A stretch of 64,000 nucleotides of DNA from an uncultured Flavobacteriaceae bacterium (GTDB lineage: Bacteria > Bacteroidota > Bacteroidia > Flavobacteriales > Flavobacteriaceae). Shown here in pieces: positions 32,238 through 39,557 of the stretch (position 1 is the first letter of the stretch; every line of letters starts with the position of its first letter). A program made the position numbers and the translations under genes. Under the pieces are notes generated by a model. It saw only the letters and a program-made list of their open reading frames with translations. It had not been told where the DNA came from and did not search any database. The DNA lies in assembly GCA_913062575.1 (NCBI GenBank), contig CAJXVT010000004.1, forward strand, positions 1 through 64,000, given 5' to 3'.

Positions 32238-34625
32238 ATGAAAATATTAAAATCTGAAAATCATCAACCAATTGAACTGCCTTTACAGCTTAAAATAAGT
32301 TTTGAGAAGGTTTTTTTAATGTATAAAAAATACACTGAAGAGGATTTTAAAGAACATCCTTTTCATAAGTCTGCAAAAATAATGGTGGCTAAAATAGAAC
32401 AACATCCTGAACTGATTGATGGGTTTTCAGATTTTAGTTTGCTTGAAAAATTGCAAAACGAAATTAGTTTATTACTAGAGCCGTTATTTCCAGAACCGTT
32501 ATTGTTAAATGAAATTAAATCAGCAACAATTCCGTTTACATTTACCTCATTTAATTTCACTACTCGATTTGAAAATATTATAAAAAACGCTGGAGAAAAC
32601 TTTGAAATAAAAGTTCGTAATTTTGAAGATGACCTCTTATATATTTACGGATGTACGATGATTTTAGCCACCGTTTATGATTACAATATAGATTTAAAAA
32701 GACCTTTCTTTTTTGATATCCCAGATATAAATACCGGAATTACAAGACATTACAGAGCCGCTTTTAATGGCGATTTTGGTGAAATTCACCCAACAGAAAA
32801 CGCTCCAAAAATCACCGATGAAGATATTAAAATATTACTCGATAATTTTGATAATGTTGACATTTGGAAAGAAAAATTCCCGCCAAACAGTTATGTTTAT
32901 AAAGGATTTGGAATTATGAATCTGTTTGATGTAACAACAGATGAAACCATTACAAATATTAGAACAAACTTACTTAGAGCTAACGATAATTTAATTAGTG
33001 ACTTACAAGAAAATATTCGAGAGTTTTACAACATAAAAGACTTGCGTTTAGGCTATTCTGTGTTTGATATTTCAAACATCGGAGCAAAATCGATTACAAC
33101 GAAAAACTCTGAAAGCATCATATTAAAAGATTTAAAGCAAATTGATTGCAGTAATTTTTTCTGTGATGATACGATACATAATCTTTTTAAAAATCACGAA
33201 GCTATTGCCATTTCTGATGTAGAAAAACATGGGAAACAAACGAACAAAAATGATTTCTATAAAAGATTAAAAACTAATGGAATAGGCAGTATTATTCTTA
33301 TCCCTATAAAAGCTTCAACAGGTAACGATTTATCAATTTTAGAAATTGCCTCACCTAGACCTTTTGAGTTAAACTCTATAAATCAGAATAAATTAAAAGA
33401 TATCATTCCTGTTTTTAAAGCTGCAGTAGATCGTTTTTCTGAAGAACATATAAATGTAATCGAAGCTACAATTCAAGAACATTACACAACCATACACCCT
33501 GCTGTAAAATGGCGTTTTAGTGAAGCCGCAGAAAATTACCAGCAACAATTATTTAATAAAGTAGAAAAACCAAAATTAGACGAGATCATTTTTAATGATG
33601 TCTATCCTTTATTTGGACAAAGTGATATTAAGGGTTCGTCTATTGCCAGAAATAATGCTATTAAGGAAGATTTAACTACGCAATTAACATTGGCAATAAA
33701 CATCTTAAACCAAGCATGTTTAGTAGAGAAACTCCCCATTTATGATGAATTAATATTCAGAATTAATGAGTACTCTACGAATGTTTCTGACGGATTAAAA
33801 GCTGGAGATGAAATTGCTATTATTGATTTTCTAAAACGAGAAATTTATCCGGTATTTAATCACATTAAAAAAGTTAATAACAGTTTATCTGAACATGTAG
33901 CTGTTTATATGGATCGAATAGATTCTAAACTGCATGTAGTTTACGAAAAGCGTAAAGATTATGAAGATAGTGTTACACTATTAAATGACAAATTAGCTAA
34001 GTTTTTAGATCAAAAGCAAGAAGATGCCCAAAAAATGTTTCCTCATTACTTTGAGCGTTATAAAACTGATGGTGTAGAATACAATATGTACATCGGAGAT
34101 TCTTTAGTGAAAAATAAATCTTTCGATAAATTGTTCCTATACAATTTAAGATTGTGGCAATTGCAAATGATGTATGATTTAGAAAATCTTGCTTTTAAAG
34201 CAAGATCAGAAATGAATCACGATTTAAGAGTTGCTTCATTAATATTAGTACATAGCAACCCAATGGCTATAAAATTTAGAATGGATGAGAAGCAATTTGA
34301 TGTTGATGGGGCTTACAATATAAGATACGAAATAATCAAAAAACGTATTGATAAAGCGCATATAAAAGACACGAATGAACGTTTAACAATCCCTGGTAAA
34401 ATAGCGATTGTATATTCTCAAGACAGCGATGCAATAGAGTATTTAAAATACATTAAATTCTTACAGTCTAAAAAATATTTAGGCACAGTAGAAAAGTTAG
34501 ACATTGAAGATTTACAAGGAGTTTCGGGACTAAAAGCTTTACGTGTAGAAGTTATATTCAACAAAAATTACAACGAAGAAAAGTCAATCTCGTTTAATGA
34601 TTTAATTGAAGAACTAAAAGCATAA
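32238..34625 (+). CDS. GAF-like domain protein of unknown function
   Basis: This 795-residue cytosolic protein lacks a signal peptide or membrane segments. Residues about 250-410 resemble a GAF sensory domain (LRLGYSVFDISNIG, then FKNHEAIAISDVEKHG, GIGSIILIPIKASTGNDLSILEIASP). The rest is long helical sequence with unassigned ends, including AVYMDRIDSKLHVVYEKRKDYEDSVTLLNDKL and a C-terminal beta-rich piece near KIAIVYSQDSDAIEYLKYIKFL. There is no kinase, cyclase or DNA-binding output that I can see. Its stop is six bases from that of the convergent HD-PycTM gene. It may be a sensor whose partner acts elsewhere; the function is unknown. Confidence 0.7.
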   Translation: MKILKSENHQPIELPLQLKISFEKVFLMYKKYTEEDFKEHPFHKSAKIMVAKIEQHPELIDGFSDFSLLEKLQNEISLLLEPLFPEPLLLNEIKSATIPFTFTSFNFTTRFENIIKNAGENFEIKVRNFEDDLLYIYGCTMILATVYDYNIDLKRPFFFDIPDINTGITRHYRAAFNGDFGEIHPTENAPKITDEDIKILLDNFDNVDIWKEKFPPNSYVYKGFGIMNLFDVTTDETITNIRTNLLRANDNLISDLQENIREFYNIKDLRLGYSVFDISNIGAKSITTKNSESIILKDLKQIDCSNFFCDDTIHNLFKNHEAIAISDVEKHGKQTNKNDFYKRLKTNGIGSIILIPIKASTGNDLSILEIASPRPFELNSINQNKLKDIIPVFKAAVDRFSEEHINVIEATIQEHYTTIHPAVKWRFSEAAENYQQQLFNKVEKPKLDEIIFNDVYPLFGQSDIKGSSIARNNAIKEDLTTQLTLAINILNQACLVEKLPIYDELIFRINEYSTNVSDGLKAGDEIAIIDFLKREIYPVFNHIKKVNNSLSEHVAVYMDRIDSKLHVVYEKRKDYEDSVTLLNDKLAKFLDQKQEDAQKMFPHYFERYKTDGVEYNMYIGDSLVKNKSFDKLFLYNLRLWQLQMMYDLENLAFKARSEMNHDLRVASLILVHSNPMAIKFRMDEKQFDVDGAYNIRYEIIKKRIDKAHIKDTNERLTIPGKIAIVYSQDSDAIEYLKYIKFLQSKKYLGTVEKLDIEDLQGVSGLKALRVEVIFNKNYNEEKSISFNDLIEELKA

Positions 34626-34631
34626 AGCTTC

Positions 34632-35837
34632 TTAAACCAAGCCTCTTTCTTGCATTTTAAATGCAAGAGCAAACGAAATTACAGAAACAATAATCCCAAC
34701 CATAAACACCAAATAAGTTACTCTTAATAGCTTATATTTCCTATCCAACACCTTTCCCAAAAAATACAAGTCTTTAGTCATAGAACTGTATAAGTATTGC
34801 TTGTCTTTCATTAATTCTCCCATTGCCCATTCAAATTCTGGCAAGCTCATTTTATGAAAATTCCCGAAAAACAATAAATTCACCTTTTTATCTTCTACAT
34901 CTTTTTTTGTAAACTTACCGCCAGTTACATTTGGTCTTGTAGCTATAACAGATAAAATAATTGTAGTAACTGTAAATATGATAAAAATGATTGTAGGTGT
35001 AATTAAGTATTGATTTGATGGGTTGTCTAATTTTGGCAATAAGCTAGATAAAGCCAACGAAATAATAATTGCATTTACAGACAATAAAATATTGGCTTTT
35101 GTATCTGCAATATCACTTAATGTGATATGATTTCTTAAGGTAACTCTAAACATGGTTTCTATCCCTCGTTCTGGAGTTTTTGCTTTTTGCTTTTTAAGTT
35201 TTAATTCTTCTTTTTTAACAGATTCTTTGCGCTCTTCTTGCTTTATTTTTTTTTGTGATTTAAATAATTGAGCTAAGTTTTTGTCTTTTCCTTGTTGCCA
35301 ATTTTCTTGAGCGTAATTAGTGTAATAATGGTGTTTATTTGCTAAAAAACCAATATTCTCTAGAATCCATTCTGAATCCGAATAGTTTTTATTATGAACA
35401 AGATTTACTTCTTCCTTTAATAAATCGCTGACATCAGAAAAACTTTTTTTAGCCAAATGATTACTATCAGCATCTTTCAATATTTTCTCTAAAACATCAT
35501 CAGCTTCAACACCCATTTTTGTAGCTCTAATCAATCTGTTTACATTATTAATAATACTATCATCAATATTGTATTCTTCTAAAAAATTAGTGGTAATTCT
35601 TACACTCGACTCTTCATGATTCTCGGTTCCTTTAATGTAACCAACATCATGAAACCAAGCTGCTAAAAGCAATATATTTGCATCAGTTTCAGAGATCTTC
35701 TCTCCTTCAATTAACTCCTTAGTAGCATTCACAACACGTTGTGTATGACTCAAATTATGGTACAAATAATCAGTACTTAACTCTTTGGTTAATAATGAAA
35801 AAACATATTTTTCGGTTTTAAGTAACAATGTCTCCAT
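34632..35837 (-). CDS. HD-domain phosphohydrolase fused to a Pycsar TM effector-like domain
   Basis: This 401-residue protein has an N-terminal HD domain (YHNLSHTQRVV with His31, AAWFHDVGY with His63-Asp64, and a distal Asp in KDADSNHL), expected to hydrolyse a phosphoester, perhaps a nucleotide. A Lys/Glu-rich linker (about 190-225) leads to a domain resembling DUF5706/PycTM: MFRVTLRNHITLSDIADTKA, then membrane helices near residues 248-268, 279-299 and a last one near 375-395. PycTM domains are membrane effectors of Pycsar cyclic-nucleotide defence. No cyclase gene is adjacent. The HD part may destroy the signal or regulate the effector. Confidence 0.8.
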   Translation of the reverse strand: METLLLKTEKYVFSLLTKELSTDYLYHNLSHTQRVVNATKELIEGEKISETDANILLLAAWFHDVGYIKGTENHEESSVRITTNFLEEYNIDDSIINNVNRLIRATKMGVEADDVLEKILKDADSNHLAKKSFSDVSDLLKEEVNLVHNKNYSDSEWILENIGFLANKHHYYTNYAQENWQQGKDKNLAQLFKSQKKIKQEERKESVKKEELKLKKQKAKTPERGIETMFRVTLRNHITLSDIADTKANILLSVNAIIISLALSSLLPKLDNPSNQYLITPTIIFIIFTVTTIILSVIATRPNVTGGKFTKKDVEDKKVNLLFFGNFHKMSLPEFEWAMGELMKDKQYLYSSMTKDLYFLGKVLDRKYKLLRVTYLVFMVGIIVSVISFALAFKMQERGLV

Positions 35838-35873: not shown

Positions 35874-38800
35874 ATGAACAGTACAAAGTATTTAAGCCTA
35901 ATTGCAATCTTTCTATTACTAAGTAATTGCGCAACACATCAACCACAATTCAAAAATAAAAAAGAACTATACAATGTAACTTCACTAGAAGACGTAAAAC
36001 ATTCTTTTTACTTACTTGGTGATGGTGGAAATTCTCCAATAGGAGATGTAGCAATTACTTTAAAAAGACTGGAAAAAGAATTAGAATATGCTTCAAAAAA
36101 TAGCACTATTTTATTTTTAGGAGATAATATATATCCCGCAGGATTACCTAAGAAAAATGACAAAGGAAGAGTTTTTGCTGAACATCAATTAAATGTTCAG
36201 ACAAGTACTGTTAAAGGCTTTGAAAAAAGCACCATTTTTATTCCAGGAAATCATGATTGGTATTCAAATGGACTGAAAGGTCTAGAAAGACAAGAAAATT
36301 ACATCACTAAACTACTAGGAAAGGATTCATTTTTACCCAAAAAAGGTTGTCCAATTGATAAGGTTAACATCTCTGATGATATAGTTTTGATTATTATTGA
36401 TAGCGAATGGTTTTTAACAAATTGGAACAAACACCCAACGATAAACGACAATTGTGAAATAAAAACACGAACTCGTTTTTTTGATGAATTTGAAAGTTTG
36501 ATAAAAAAAGCAAGAGGAAAAACCACCATTGTTGCTATGCATCACCCAATGTATACAAATGGGCCTCATGGCGGACAATTTTCTTTAAAACAACAATTAT
36601 TTCCGGCAGGAAATAAGCTTCCAATTCCAGTTTTAGGAACCTTTTTAAACCTAATTCGTAAAACAAGTGGACTTAGCAATACTGATCTTCAAAACAAAAG
36701 ATATTTAGAGTTTAAAAACAGGGTTGTCACCTTATCACAAGAAAATGAAAAAGTTATTTTTGTTGCAGGACACGAACATAGTTTGCAATATATTGTACAA
36801 GACAATCTACCTCAAATCGTTAGTGGAGCAGGTTCTAAAACTACTGCTACGAGAAATGTAGGTGGCGGACAGTTTTCATTTGGTGGTGCTGGATATGCAA
36901 GATTAGATGTTTTTAATAACGGATCATCTGAAGTTACATTTGTAGATACAGAAAAAAATGAAGTTGTTTTTAAAACTCAAGTTTTCAACCCTAATACACC
37001 TTATGAAGATCATAAATTTAAAGCGATAACAGACTCACATACTTCTGCATCAATTTATACAGATGAAGAAATTACAAAAGGTAACTTATACAAATATCTA
37101 TGGGGAGATCGTTACAGAAAATACTACGGAACAAAAGTTAGGGCAAAAAATGTTGATTTAGATACACTTTTTGGAGGTCTAACTCCCAAAAGAAAAGGTG
37201 GTGGACATCAATCAAAATCATTGCGATTAGAAGATAAAGATGGACGAGAATATGTAATGAGAGCTTTGCGTAAAAATGCCTTGCAATATCTACAAGCTGT
37301 TGCTTTTAAAACACAATTTATTGAAGGTCAATTTGACAACACTTATTCTGAAGACTTATTATTAGATGTGTTCACAGGATCACACCCATATGCTCCATTT
37401 ACTGTTGCTACTTTAGCTGAATCTATTGATGTGTTACACACAAAACCTCAACTATTTTATGTTCCAAAGCAAAAAGCTTTACTGCATTTTAATAATGATT
37501 TTGGAGATGAATTGTACATGATAGAAGAACGTGCCGCTTCTGGCCATGGAGATAAAGCCAACTTTGGATTTTCTAATAAAGTAATTAGCACAAATGATGT
37601 ATTAAAAAAACTTACAAAAAATGCCAATTCAAAAATTGATGAAGAAGCCTATATCAGAGCAAGATTGTTTGACATGGTCTTAGGAGATTGGGATAGACAC
37701 GAAGATCAATGGCGTTGGGCAGCATTTAAAAAAGGGGAAACAACGGTTTATAAACCGATGCCAAGAGATAGAGATCAGGTTTTTTCTATTATGGCAGACG
37801 GCGCCTTACTTAATTTTGTGACCAAAGCGGTTCCTTCACTACGATTAATGCAATCGTATAATGAAGAATTGGCAAATACAAAATGGTTTAATTTAGAACC
37901 TTATCCTTTAGATATGGCCTTGATAAACCAAGCCAATAAGCAAATTTGGGACACCCAAGTAAATCATATTCAAAGTAACTTAACCGATGCTGTAATTGAA
38001 TCTGCTTTTTCACATTTCCCTGAAGAAGTAACAGACAATACCATTACTGACATTAAAAGAAAGTTAAAAGGAAGAATACAGAATCTAAAAAAGATATCTA
38101 ACGAATATTTCATACATATTAACAGATACTCTGTTATAAAAGGAACAGATAAGGATGATTTATTTGAAGTAGAAAGATTAGACAATGGAGTTACTGAGGT
38201 GAGAGCATATAGAATCATAAAAGGAGAAAAAGGCGAGTTATTTCACCAAAAGAAATACTCTAAAAACCTAACCAAAGAAATTTGGATTTATGGTTTAGAC
38301 GACAAAGATGTTTTTAAGGTTTTCGGCGATAAGTCTGCAAGTATTAAAGTGAGAGTTATTGGAGGGCAAAACAACGACACTTATGATGTTTCTAACGGAA
38401 ATAAACTAACTATTTACGACTATAAATCGAAAGAAAACACTTTTACCACTAACAAAGGGGGAAGAAAGTTAACTGACGTATACGATACGAATGTGTATGA
38501 CTACAAGAAGCTAAAATACAATGCTATTACTGTTTTGCCAACAATTGGAATGAATCCTGATGATGGCCTTAAAGTTGGCTTAGAGAGTTCTTTTACCAGT
38601 TTTGGTTTTGAAAGAAATCCTTTTACTTCTCAACATAGCATTGCCATGTCTTATTACTTTGCAACCAAAGGGTTTGATATTCAGTTTAAAAGCGAATTTG
38701 CAAACGTAATTAGCAATTGGAATCTAGGTTTAGAAGCAGGTTTTACCAGTCCAAATTATAGTGTAAATTTCTTTGGGTTTGGGAACGAAACTAGCAATCC

Positions 38801-39557
38801 ATATTTTATCAATGAAGACATATACGATGAAGATTACAATCGTATTAAAATTAGAAAGGCTTTCTTTTCTTCGTATTTAATTTGGAGAGGAGAATTAGGT
38901 GCTAGCTTTAAAATCGGTTTAAATTATGAAACAAACAATGTAGAAAACACCCCTGGACGATATATAACGACCACTTCACTTACTAATAAAAACACTTTTC
39001 TTGGAGCTGAAGCACATTACAATTTTGAAAATAGCGACAATAAAGCATTTCCAACATTAGGGATGAAAGCAGATTTAAAATTCGGATATAAATCAAACAC
39101 AGATACAAATGCGAGCTTTGGTTATATCATTCCTTCTTTAAGTTTTGACTACAAATTAATATCAAGCGGAAAATTAGTATTGGCAACCAAAGTAAAAAGT
39201 CATTTTAATTTTGGTAACGGTTTTGAGTTTTATCAAGCAGCATCTATTGGAGCAAATGATGGTTTACGCGGCTATAGAAATCAACGTTTTACTGGTAAAA
39301 ATGCATTTTATCAAAATACTGATATTCGTTTAAATTTACGAAAAATGAGAACCGGCCTATTGCCTTTGCATATTGGTTTGTATAGCGGATTTGATTATGG
39401 AAGAGTTTGGTTAGAAAACAGTTCTTCTGACACTTGGAATACATCTTTTGGTGGCGGAATTTTCTTAAATGGTGCAGATATGCTAGCTTTAAACCTTGGG
39501 GTTTTTAAAGGAAAAGAAGAAGCTAGAATTGCATTTTCTTTAGGTTTCACATTTTAA
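35874..39557 (+). CDS. Metallophosphatase / FAM20-like kinase motif / Omp85-type barrel fusion
   Basis: This 1227-residue protein seems to have three parts. After a signal peptide with a possible lipobox (LLLSNC, Cys19, atypical Asn before Cys), residues about 45-330 are a calcineurin-type phosphatase: LGDGGNSP, FLGDNIYPAGLP, GNHDWYSNG, HHPMYTNGPHGG, GHEHSLQYI. Residues about 400-720 carry a segment with DMVLGDWDRHEDQW (D607) and PRDRDQVF (D634), recalling the catalytic loop and metal-binding Asp of FAM20/HipA/CotH kinases. Residues about 860-1227 look like an Omp85 barrel, with GLRGYRNQRF and terminal Phe. No frame break was found. It diverges from the HD-PycTM gene. Confidence 0.8.
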   Translation: MNSTKYLSLIAIFLLLSNCATHQPQFKNKKELYNVTSLEDVKHSFYLLGDGGNSPIGDVAITLKRLEKELEYASKNSTILFLGDNIYPAGLPKKNDKGRVFAEHQLNVQTSTVKGFEKSTIFIPGNHDWYSNGLKGLERQENYITKLLGKDSFLPKKGCPIDKVNISDDIVLIIIDSEWFLTNWNKHPTINDNCEIKTRTRFFDEFESLIKKARGKTTIVAMHHPMYTNGPHGGQFSLKQQLFPAGNKLPIPVLGTFLNLIRKTSGLSNTDLQNKRYLEFKNRVVTLSQENEKVIFVAGHEHSLQYIVQDNLPQIVSGAGSKTTATRNVGGGQFSFGGAGYARLDVFNNGSSEVTFVDTEKNEVVFKTQVFNPNTPYEDHKFKAITDSHTSASIYTDEEITKGNLYKYLWGDRYRKYYGTKVRAKNVDLDTLFGGLTPKRKGGGHQSKSLRLEDKDGREYVMRALRKNALQYLQAVAFKTQFIEGQFDNTYSEDLLLDVFTGSHPYAPFTVATLAESIDVLHTKPQLFYVPKQKALLHFNNDFGDELYMIEERAASGHGDKANFGFSNKVISTNDVLKKLTKNANSKIDEEAYIRARLFDMVLGDWDRHEDQWRWAAFKKGETTVYKPMPRDRDQVFSIMADGALLNFVTKAVPSLRLMQSYNEELANTKWFNLEPYPLDMALINQANKQIWDTQVNHIQSNLTDAVIESAFSHFPEEVTDNTITDIKRKLKGRIQNLKKISNEYFIHINRYSVIKGTDKDDLFEVERLDNGVTEVRAYRIIKGEKGELFHQKKYSKNLTKEIWIYGLDDKDVFKVFGDKSASIKVRVIGGQNNDTYDVSNGNKLTIYDYKSKENTFTTNKGGRKLTDVYDTNVYDYKKLKYNAITVLPTIGMNPDDGLKVGLESSFTSFGFERNPFTSQHSIAMSYYFATKGFDIQFKSEFANVISNWNLGLEAGFTSPNYSVNFFGFGNETSNPYFINEDIYDEDYNRIKIRKAFFSSYLIWRGELGASFKIGLNYETNNVENTPGRYITTTSLTNKNTFLGAEAHYNFENSDNKAFPTLGMKADLKFGYKSNTDTNASFGYIIPSLSFDYKLISSGKLVLATKVKSHFNFGNGFEFYQAASIGANDGLRGYRNQRFTGKNAFYQNTDIRLNLRKMRTGLLPLHIGLYSGFDYGRVWLENSSSDTWNTSFGGGIFLNGADMLALNLGVFKGKEEARIAFSLGFTF

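Follow-up and report, generated by a model that had tools for sequence, protein, structure and literature searches.

Within a 64,000-nucleotide stretch of DNA from an uncultured Flavobacteriaceae bacterium (GenBank assembly GCA_913062575.1, contig CAJXVT010000004.1, positions 1 to 64,000; hereafter the window), one forward-strand gene encodes a 1227-residue protein in which a middle domain with a predicted protein kinase-like (PKL) fold stands between a calcineurin-like phosphatase and an Omp85-type barrel. We read this protein, with a probability of roughly two in three, as an envelope phosphotransferase paired with a phosphatase, anchored in the outer membrane and acting in one pathway with the HD-PycTM membrane protein encoded beside it. 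The fold, domains, conservation, barrel layout and gene association described below are computational results. A preliminary description of the window had placed phosphatase, kinase and barrel motifs in a single open frame, and they were all found there, with GDWDRHEDQW starting at residue 604, PRDRDQVF at 630 and GLRGY at 1130, and with D, R and D at residues 607, 608 and 634. The gene is laid out as follows:

35874..39557, + strand: whole gene, 1227 amino acids (aa), ATG start; lipobox, calcineurin-like phosphatase, kinase-fold domain, beta-rich linker, 16-strand barrel
35874..35930, + strand: putative lipoprotein signal, lipobox LSNC with Cys19, then ATHQP; without export signal
36018..36980, + strand: calcineurin-like metallophosphatase, residues ~49-369; D50, D84, N85, N126, H127, H300 and H302 present
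37044..38153, + strand: predicted kinase-fold (PKL) domain, residues ~391-760, from alignment, model and fold comparison
37194..37274, + strand: predicted N-lobe hairpin, residues 441-467, with the GGG loop 442-444 and strand 459-467 carrying R463 and K467
37683..37712, + strand: catalytic loop GDWDRHEDQW, residues 604-613, with the proposed catalytic D607, from profile alignment and conservation
37761..37784, + strand: putative metal-binding motif PRDRDQVF, residues 630-637, with D632 and D634, from profile alignment and conservation
38154..38483, + strand: beta-strand-rich linker domain, residues ~761-870, from DSSP of the model
38523..39554, + strand: predicted 16-strand Omp85-type barrel, residues ~884-1227, with GLRGY (1130-1134) between strands 11 and 12 and a terminal Phe

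A predicted kinase-type fold in the middle domain

In the predicted structure, residues of the middle domain form a two-lobed kinase-type fold, which bears out the earlier claim of a kinase-type domain and places it among PKL folds rather than among folds unrelated to kinases. The closest structural matches in Foldseek were PI4KII, CotH, CtkA and HipA, with PI4KII being the closest fold, and comparison of the predicted model assigned it both the CotH and the PI4KII fold. Of the FAM20, HipA and CotH kinases named in the preliminary description, FAM20 matched more weakly than these four (Foldseek 'golgi casein kinase' 4kqa, E = 1.4e-3; Fam20 5yh2, E = 8.2e-3) and was not among the 50 matches listed in another fold search. 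A profile comparison of 487 family sequences with 28 CotH domains and 26 HipA_C domains paired the GDWDRH/PRDRDQAF region of the family with the GNWDNY/PYDYDN region of CotH (score 36.8, probability 39%) and the family's loop with the HipA loop (score 29.7, probability 12%); for reference, the CotH and HipA profiles scored 33.5 against each other (probability 31%). In the controls for the CotH and HipA comparisons, the best of 150 shuffles each reached 21.5 and 25.3 and reversed profiles 15.7 and 12.6, and the phosphatase of the window protein itself scored 19.6.

Residues 370-760 gave no Pfam or NCBIfam match at E ≤ 1. CotH (PF08757) had no match in the window at E ≤ 1 and did not figure in the 20 families that 76 aligned members matched at E ≤ 0.1; HipA (PF07804/HipA_C) stayed below cutoff, with non-significant matches in 5 of the 76 (best E 0.023) and none in the window protein; and no match to the Fam20C or PI3_PI4_kinase Pfam models was listed for the window or the 76 members. 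One relative (P0181) is named 'HipA domain-containing protein' by NCBI. A phmmer search with the whole protein against the sequences of solved structures listed six purple acid phosphatase sequences (best E 0.004) and no kinase. Since direct sequence matching to solved kinases failed, the kinase relation rests on fold and profile comparison, which support an atypical PKL fold of the PI4KII/CotH/HipA kind.

In the model, strand 459-467 carries R463 and K467, in agreement with the N-lobe that had been suspected near residue 460. We propose GGG 442-444 as the nucleotide loop and either R463 or K467 as the N-lobe base, while the profile alignment suggests that D607 would be catalytic and D632/D634 metal-binding.

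Conservation, architectures and distribution

Residues 370-760 were matched at E ≤ 0.001 by 6754 of 7995 scored candidates, and D607, R608, H609, Q612, D632 and D634 were invariant in the 76-sequence alignment, whose members share 26-80% identity with the window protein. Such invariance across divergent relatives ruled out a chance motif. Of the 296 Bacteroidota genomes sampled, 112 carried the kinase domain (138 match rows), and the 120 loci fetched, representing 125 of these rows, yielded 124 members in 119 loci (one row, L256, was lost). By the lengths before and after the kinase domain, which define these classes in place of domain calls, 72 members were phosphatase-kinase-barrel fusions, 39 were kinase plus barrel, 8 were kinase plus beta linker and 5 were kinase alone; 13 of the 124 accordingly have no barrel. 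Most are named 'hypothetical protein', 'metallophosphoesterase' or 'BamA/TamA family' in the databases. Among the close relatives that carry names are Polaribacter and other Flavobacteriaceae, and the genome of the window (2.36 Mb, 87 contigs, 68% complete) holds a single copy of the gene.

Among the 124 members, the key residues were conserved as follows: D607 in 113, R608 in 119, H609 in 109, Q612 in 114, D632 in 115, D634 in 113, R463 in 113, K467 in 118, G643 and R734 in all 124. D607, R608 and D634, replaced in 11, 5 and 11 members, respectively, are therefore not freely exchanged. A five-residue site (R463, D607, H609, D632, D634) was complete in 107 of 124 members, comprising 69/72 fusions, 27/39 kinase-barrel proteins, 6/8 kinase-linker proteins and 5/5 lone kinases. 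Residue 463 (R or K) and D634 lie 171 residues apart and were lost together, as expected of one site: 113 sequences retained both, seven retained neither and the discordant cells held 1 and 0 (three gapped rows excluded), a table that counts sequences rather than events, the tree needing about six changes of site state.

The phosphatase site of the window protein is intact, as had been described: the Pfam Metallophos model (PF00149) matched residues 57-239 with 38.7 bits (cutoff 21.5), all seven site residues are present, and the motifs GDGG, GDNIYP, GNHDW, HHPMYTNG and GHEH start at residues 49, 83, 125, 223 and 299, respectively. This site was complete in 64 of the 72 fusions. Six of the eight exceptions (L107, L118, L211, L212, L213 and L214) keep the kinase site, so that of the two enzymes the kinase seems to be the one held more constant; on the tree, phosphatase presence required eight changes, at least five of them on well-supported branches.

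Several loci showed further arrangements. A degenerate, pseudokinase-like site with the barrel kept was seen at L103, L104, L106, L122, L123, L124, L125, L251, L253, L254 and L255, and none of their 11 genomes has a strong PycTM gene. Stand-alone members of 423-425 aa with an intact site and an N-terminal hydrophobic stretch, which by eye looks like a membrane helix, occur at L087 (4882-6150), L088 (4859-6133) and L089 (4839-6107), and further ones with the same traits at L090 (4959-6227) and L091 (4942-6210); the L087 protein was matched by 816 of 5594 candidates. Adjacent barrel-less paralogues lie at L092 (4636-6255 and 6392-7975) and L093 (4629-9648), with D607 replaced by S in two of five and the other three intact. 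At L101 (genome G019), the kinase match shares its contig with a CotH-family match some 1.5 kb away.

Barrel and membrane orientation

The full model (residues 28-1227; predicted local distance difference test (pLDDT) 83.4, predicted template modelling score (pTM) 0.79) folds 16 long strands into a barrel and places GLRGY between strands 11 and 12, the arrangement of an Omp85 barrel. Among PDB structures it best matched the BamA and TamA barrels, the phosphatase-fold protein GAP50 coming fifth, and the tether proposed in the preliminary description was thereby upheld. Pfam ShlB matched residues 1121-1191 just above cutoff (23.2 bits; cutoff 22.7), and NCBIfam Omp85_fam scored 58.1 bits, below its cutoff of 200. 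No POTRA domain was found among the Pfam matches of the window protein; the kinase fold and the beta linker occupy the place of POTRA.

In Omp85 proteins, the RGY-type loop between strands 11 and 12 lies outside. With an even strand number and the GLRGY loop outside, the part preceding strand 1 would lie in the periplasm. A lipobox was found in 104 of 115 close relatives longer than 1150 aa, and Cys19 of the window protein may be lipidated. According to the available text of PMC5080379, surface export of Bacteroidota lipoproteins is signalled by two acidic residues at +2 to +6; this pattern was present in 0 of the 104 lipobox-bearing close relatives, and the window protein has ATHQP. PlpD offers a precedent, its enzyme domain being located in the periplasm, contrary to earlier belief (PMC11116518, in the part available). 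Because of the barrel layout, the absence of a lipoprotein export signal and the PlpD precedent, we prefer a periplasmic placement of both the phosphatase and the kinase-fold domain, and the surface location given in the preliminary description is disfavoured.

Companion genes

Two conserved neighbours lie upstream of the kinase gene in the window:

34632..35837, - strand: divergent neighbour, 36 bp from the kinase gene; HD domain plus PycTM membrane domain, conserved companion
32238..34625, + strand: 795-aa conserved neighbour, no Pfam match above cutoff in the window

Read as an inner-membrane protein, the former scored 126 bits against Pfam PycTM. A protein of its cluster, which by single linkage comprises HD-PycTM, PycTM alone or HD alone, was encoded within three open frames of the kinase gene at 62 of 119 loci in 16 of 23 taxonomic families, a lower bound, given locus flanks of about 5 kb. 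Gene order varied among loci, with the same companion genes retained. Genomes with a strong PycTM match (≥94 bits) carried the kinase family in 93 of 96 cases, against 19 of 200 other genomes, where the threshold was picked after the scores were seen and the Fisher values assume an independence of genomes and of sequences that does not hold; at the plain PycTM family threshold, PycTM was found in 96 of 112 kinase genomes and 16 of 184 others. The strong PycTM match lay within 15 kb of the kinase gene in 81 of 93 genomes and within 5 kb in 65. It was also present in 83 of 89 genomes with an intact kinase site and in 0 of 11 without; on the tree, however, there were only six independent pairs, with PycTM following the site in about 2.2 of them and going against it in 0.2 (sign test not significant, median p = 0.5), and this link is a lead only.

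The cluster of the 795-aa neighbour occurred near the kinase gene at 33 loci, with GAF_2 below cutoff in one relative. Other clusters, each named from one representative, included an SdiA-regulated beta-propeller (25 loci), a second cluster of 25 loci whose representative fell just below cutoff, the polyphosphate kinase PPK1 within three genes (15 of 119 loci, 7 families; chance expectation well under one locus, estimated from six slots and ~3700 genes), a SixA-like histidine phosphatase (9 loci) and class III cyclases (15 and 6 loci); neither of the two cyclase clusters had a gene near the PycTM neighbour at the f1 loci. In some lineages, the genes for PPK1, beta-propeller and kinase-barrel protein follow one another in tandem on the same strand (L243, 1451-6936; L218; L224).

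PycTM is known mainly from phage defence. PADLOC returned PycTM for the neighbour, weak PycC matches for one relative's cyclase and a weak match to the candidate phage-defence model PDC-M03A over the kinase C-lobe (E 6e-4, residues 578-742, 37605-38099, + strand), and a defence-system reading was not adopted. That HD-PycTM stays close to the kinase gene throughout the phylum suggests a PycTM role apart from phage defence.

Proposed mechanism and alternative readings

In the reading we favour, the protein would be exported, lipidated at Cys19 and set into the outer membrane through its C-terminal 16-strand barrel, so that the phosphatase and the kinase-fold domain would extend into the periplasm in the position that POTRA domains take in other Omp85 proteins. 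There the kinase-fold domain might move phosphate onto an envelope substrate (protein, lipid or glycan), the fused phosphatase would take phosphate off the same or a related substrate, and the HD-PycTM membrane protein would be the pathway partner. Catalytic activity, a substrate shared by both enzymes and a working link to HD-PycTM are what we infer here. As PI4KII is the closest fold, lipids are a possible substrate; lipid phosphorylation has been suggested for some families near FAM20 and CotH in a Legionella survey (PMC9758233, available part).

Several points weigh against this reading. The Foldseek template modelling (TM) scores were low (0.22-0.33 by query length in the first ten matches listed), as were the profile probabilities given above; no Pfam kinase family reached cutoff in the window protein or the 76 members; and the profile of their alignment (A2), which contains barrel columns contributed by longer rows, retrieved no kinase from the PDB sequences, only 24 outer-membrane assembly chains and one ribosomal protein. 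R463 is lost along with the site while K467 is kept in most degenerate copies, leaving either as the equivalent of the N-lobe lysine. The kinase site is changed in 17 of 124 members, 15 of which keep the barrel, and the phosphatase site in 8 of 72 fusions. A crude pattern search across the phylum recovered a lipobox in no more than 33 of 72 fusions and 5 of 39 kinase-barrel proteins, which means that lipidation is not a general trait. A common fold proves no function, and some PKL folds perform AMPylation or glutamylation (PMC10870513, as far as available). The main difficulty is the lack of periplasmic ATP, the periplasm being described as an environment lacking ATP in the accessible part of the PlpD paper (PMC11116518).

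Alternatively, the domain could be a PKL enzyme other than an ATP-dependent phosphokinase, moving AMP or another group, or using a donor such as polyphosphate, with the phosphatase-type domain reversing the modification; polyphosphate would answer the lack of ATP. The AMPylating and glutamylating PKL proteins and the unusual arginine (R463) as N-lobe base are in keeping with it, and polyphosphate is a possible donor given the PPK1 genes close by in some lineages; yet both acidic site residues are retained as in true kinases, and PPK1 was not seen near the other 104 loci (flanks of only ~5 kb), and we consider this alternative unlikely. Exposure of the enzyme domains at the cell surface, where they would act on outside proteins or polymers, is quite improbable. 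CotH kinases work outside the cytoplasm, and 24 of the 61 genomes sampled from the phylum carried CotH-family genes. Translocation through an Omp85 barrel was also once accepted for PlpD (PMC11116518, available part), but the barrel layout, the missing export signal and the periplasmic location eventually found for PlpD oppose surface exposure. A structural or binding role of the kinase-fold domain in place of POTRA, in a protein that mainly assembles or transports other envelope molecules, fits the domain's position and the barrel-bearing members with a changed site but is hard to credit, with the site complete in 107 of 124 members though the surrounding sequence diverges to ~26% identity (76-sequence alignment) and with 13 members lacking any barrel.

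If the favoured reading, envelope phosphorylation by a phosphotransferase-phosphatase pair, is true, the outer membrane carries its own phosphate writer and eraser, one must ask what donates phosphate in a compartment that lacks ATP, and the PycTM domain gains a role in ordinary cell life. A wider scheme remains speculative and on balance doubtful: phospho-signalling in the envelope throughout Bacteroidota, with writer and eraser in one chain coupled to HD-PycTM (in certain lineages also to class III cyclases), could join periplasmic phosphorylation and cellular nucleotide signalling in one circuit, possibly fed by polyphosphate in place of ATP.

Comparison with known systems

The phosphatase-Omp85 architecture was published in 2014 as the Omp85 subfamily 'Metallo' (PMC4104836), whose proteins are probably of the same kind as the window protein, both having an N-terminal PF00149 domain and a C-terminal Omp85 barrel. 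In the available part of that text, these proteins are named metalloproteases, the word 'kinase' is absent and the subfamily is described as conserved at genus level only; the kinase family, by contrast, is found here in 112 of the 296 Bacteroidota genomes. PlpD likewise has an enzyme domain ahead of an Omp85 barrel, held in the periplasm, but consists of a patatin and POTRA without kinase or phosphatase (PMC11116518, in the part available). Unlike PI4KII, CotH, CtkA and HipA, the window family has no Pfam membership and combines a GDWDRHxDQ loop with R463, a fused phosphatase and a barrel. It shares with FAM20 the PKL fold and a likeness of the loop, the point made in the preliminary description, but the structural match is weaker and no Fam20 model was among the Pfam matches. 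The window neighbour matches the Pycsar effector PycTM but is fused to an HD domain.

Judged by title and abstract, no paper listed by the literature searches describes the kinase-like domain, a statement that excludes Niu 2021 (Riemerella metallophosphoesterase) and Gradowski 2020 (bacterial kinase-like families); the family might already figure in the latter or in the KINtaro family table. The text of PMC8262856 on HipA-like families does not contain Bacteroid, outer membrane, periplasm or CotH, that of PMC5865150 on Fam20 does not contain bacteria, HipA or CotH, and that of PMC12045153 on F. johnsoniae TamL contains neither kinase nor phosphoesterase. As far as the literature searches show, the barrel architecture was already known, and what is new is a kinase-fold family outside the named ones, which the Pfam and NCBIfam models did not recognise here and which is spread through the sampled Bacteroidota, together with a companion gene not previously linked to it.

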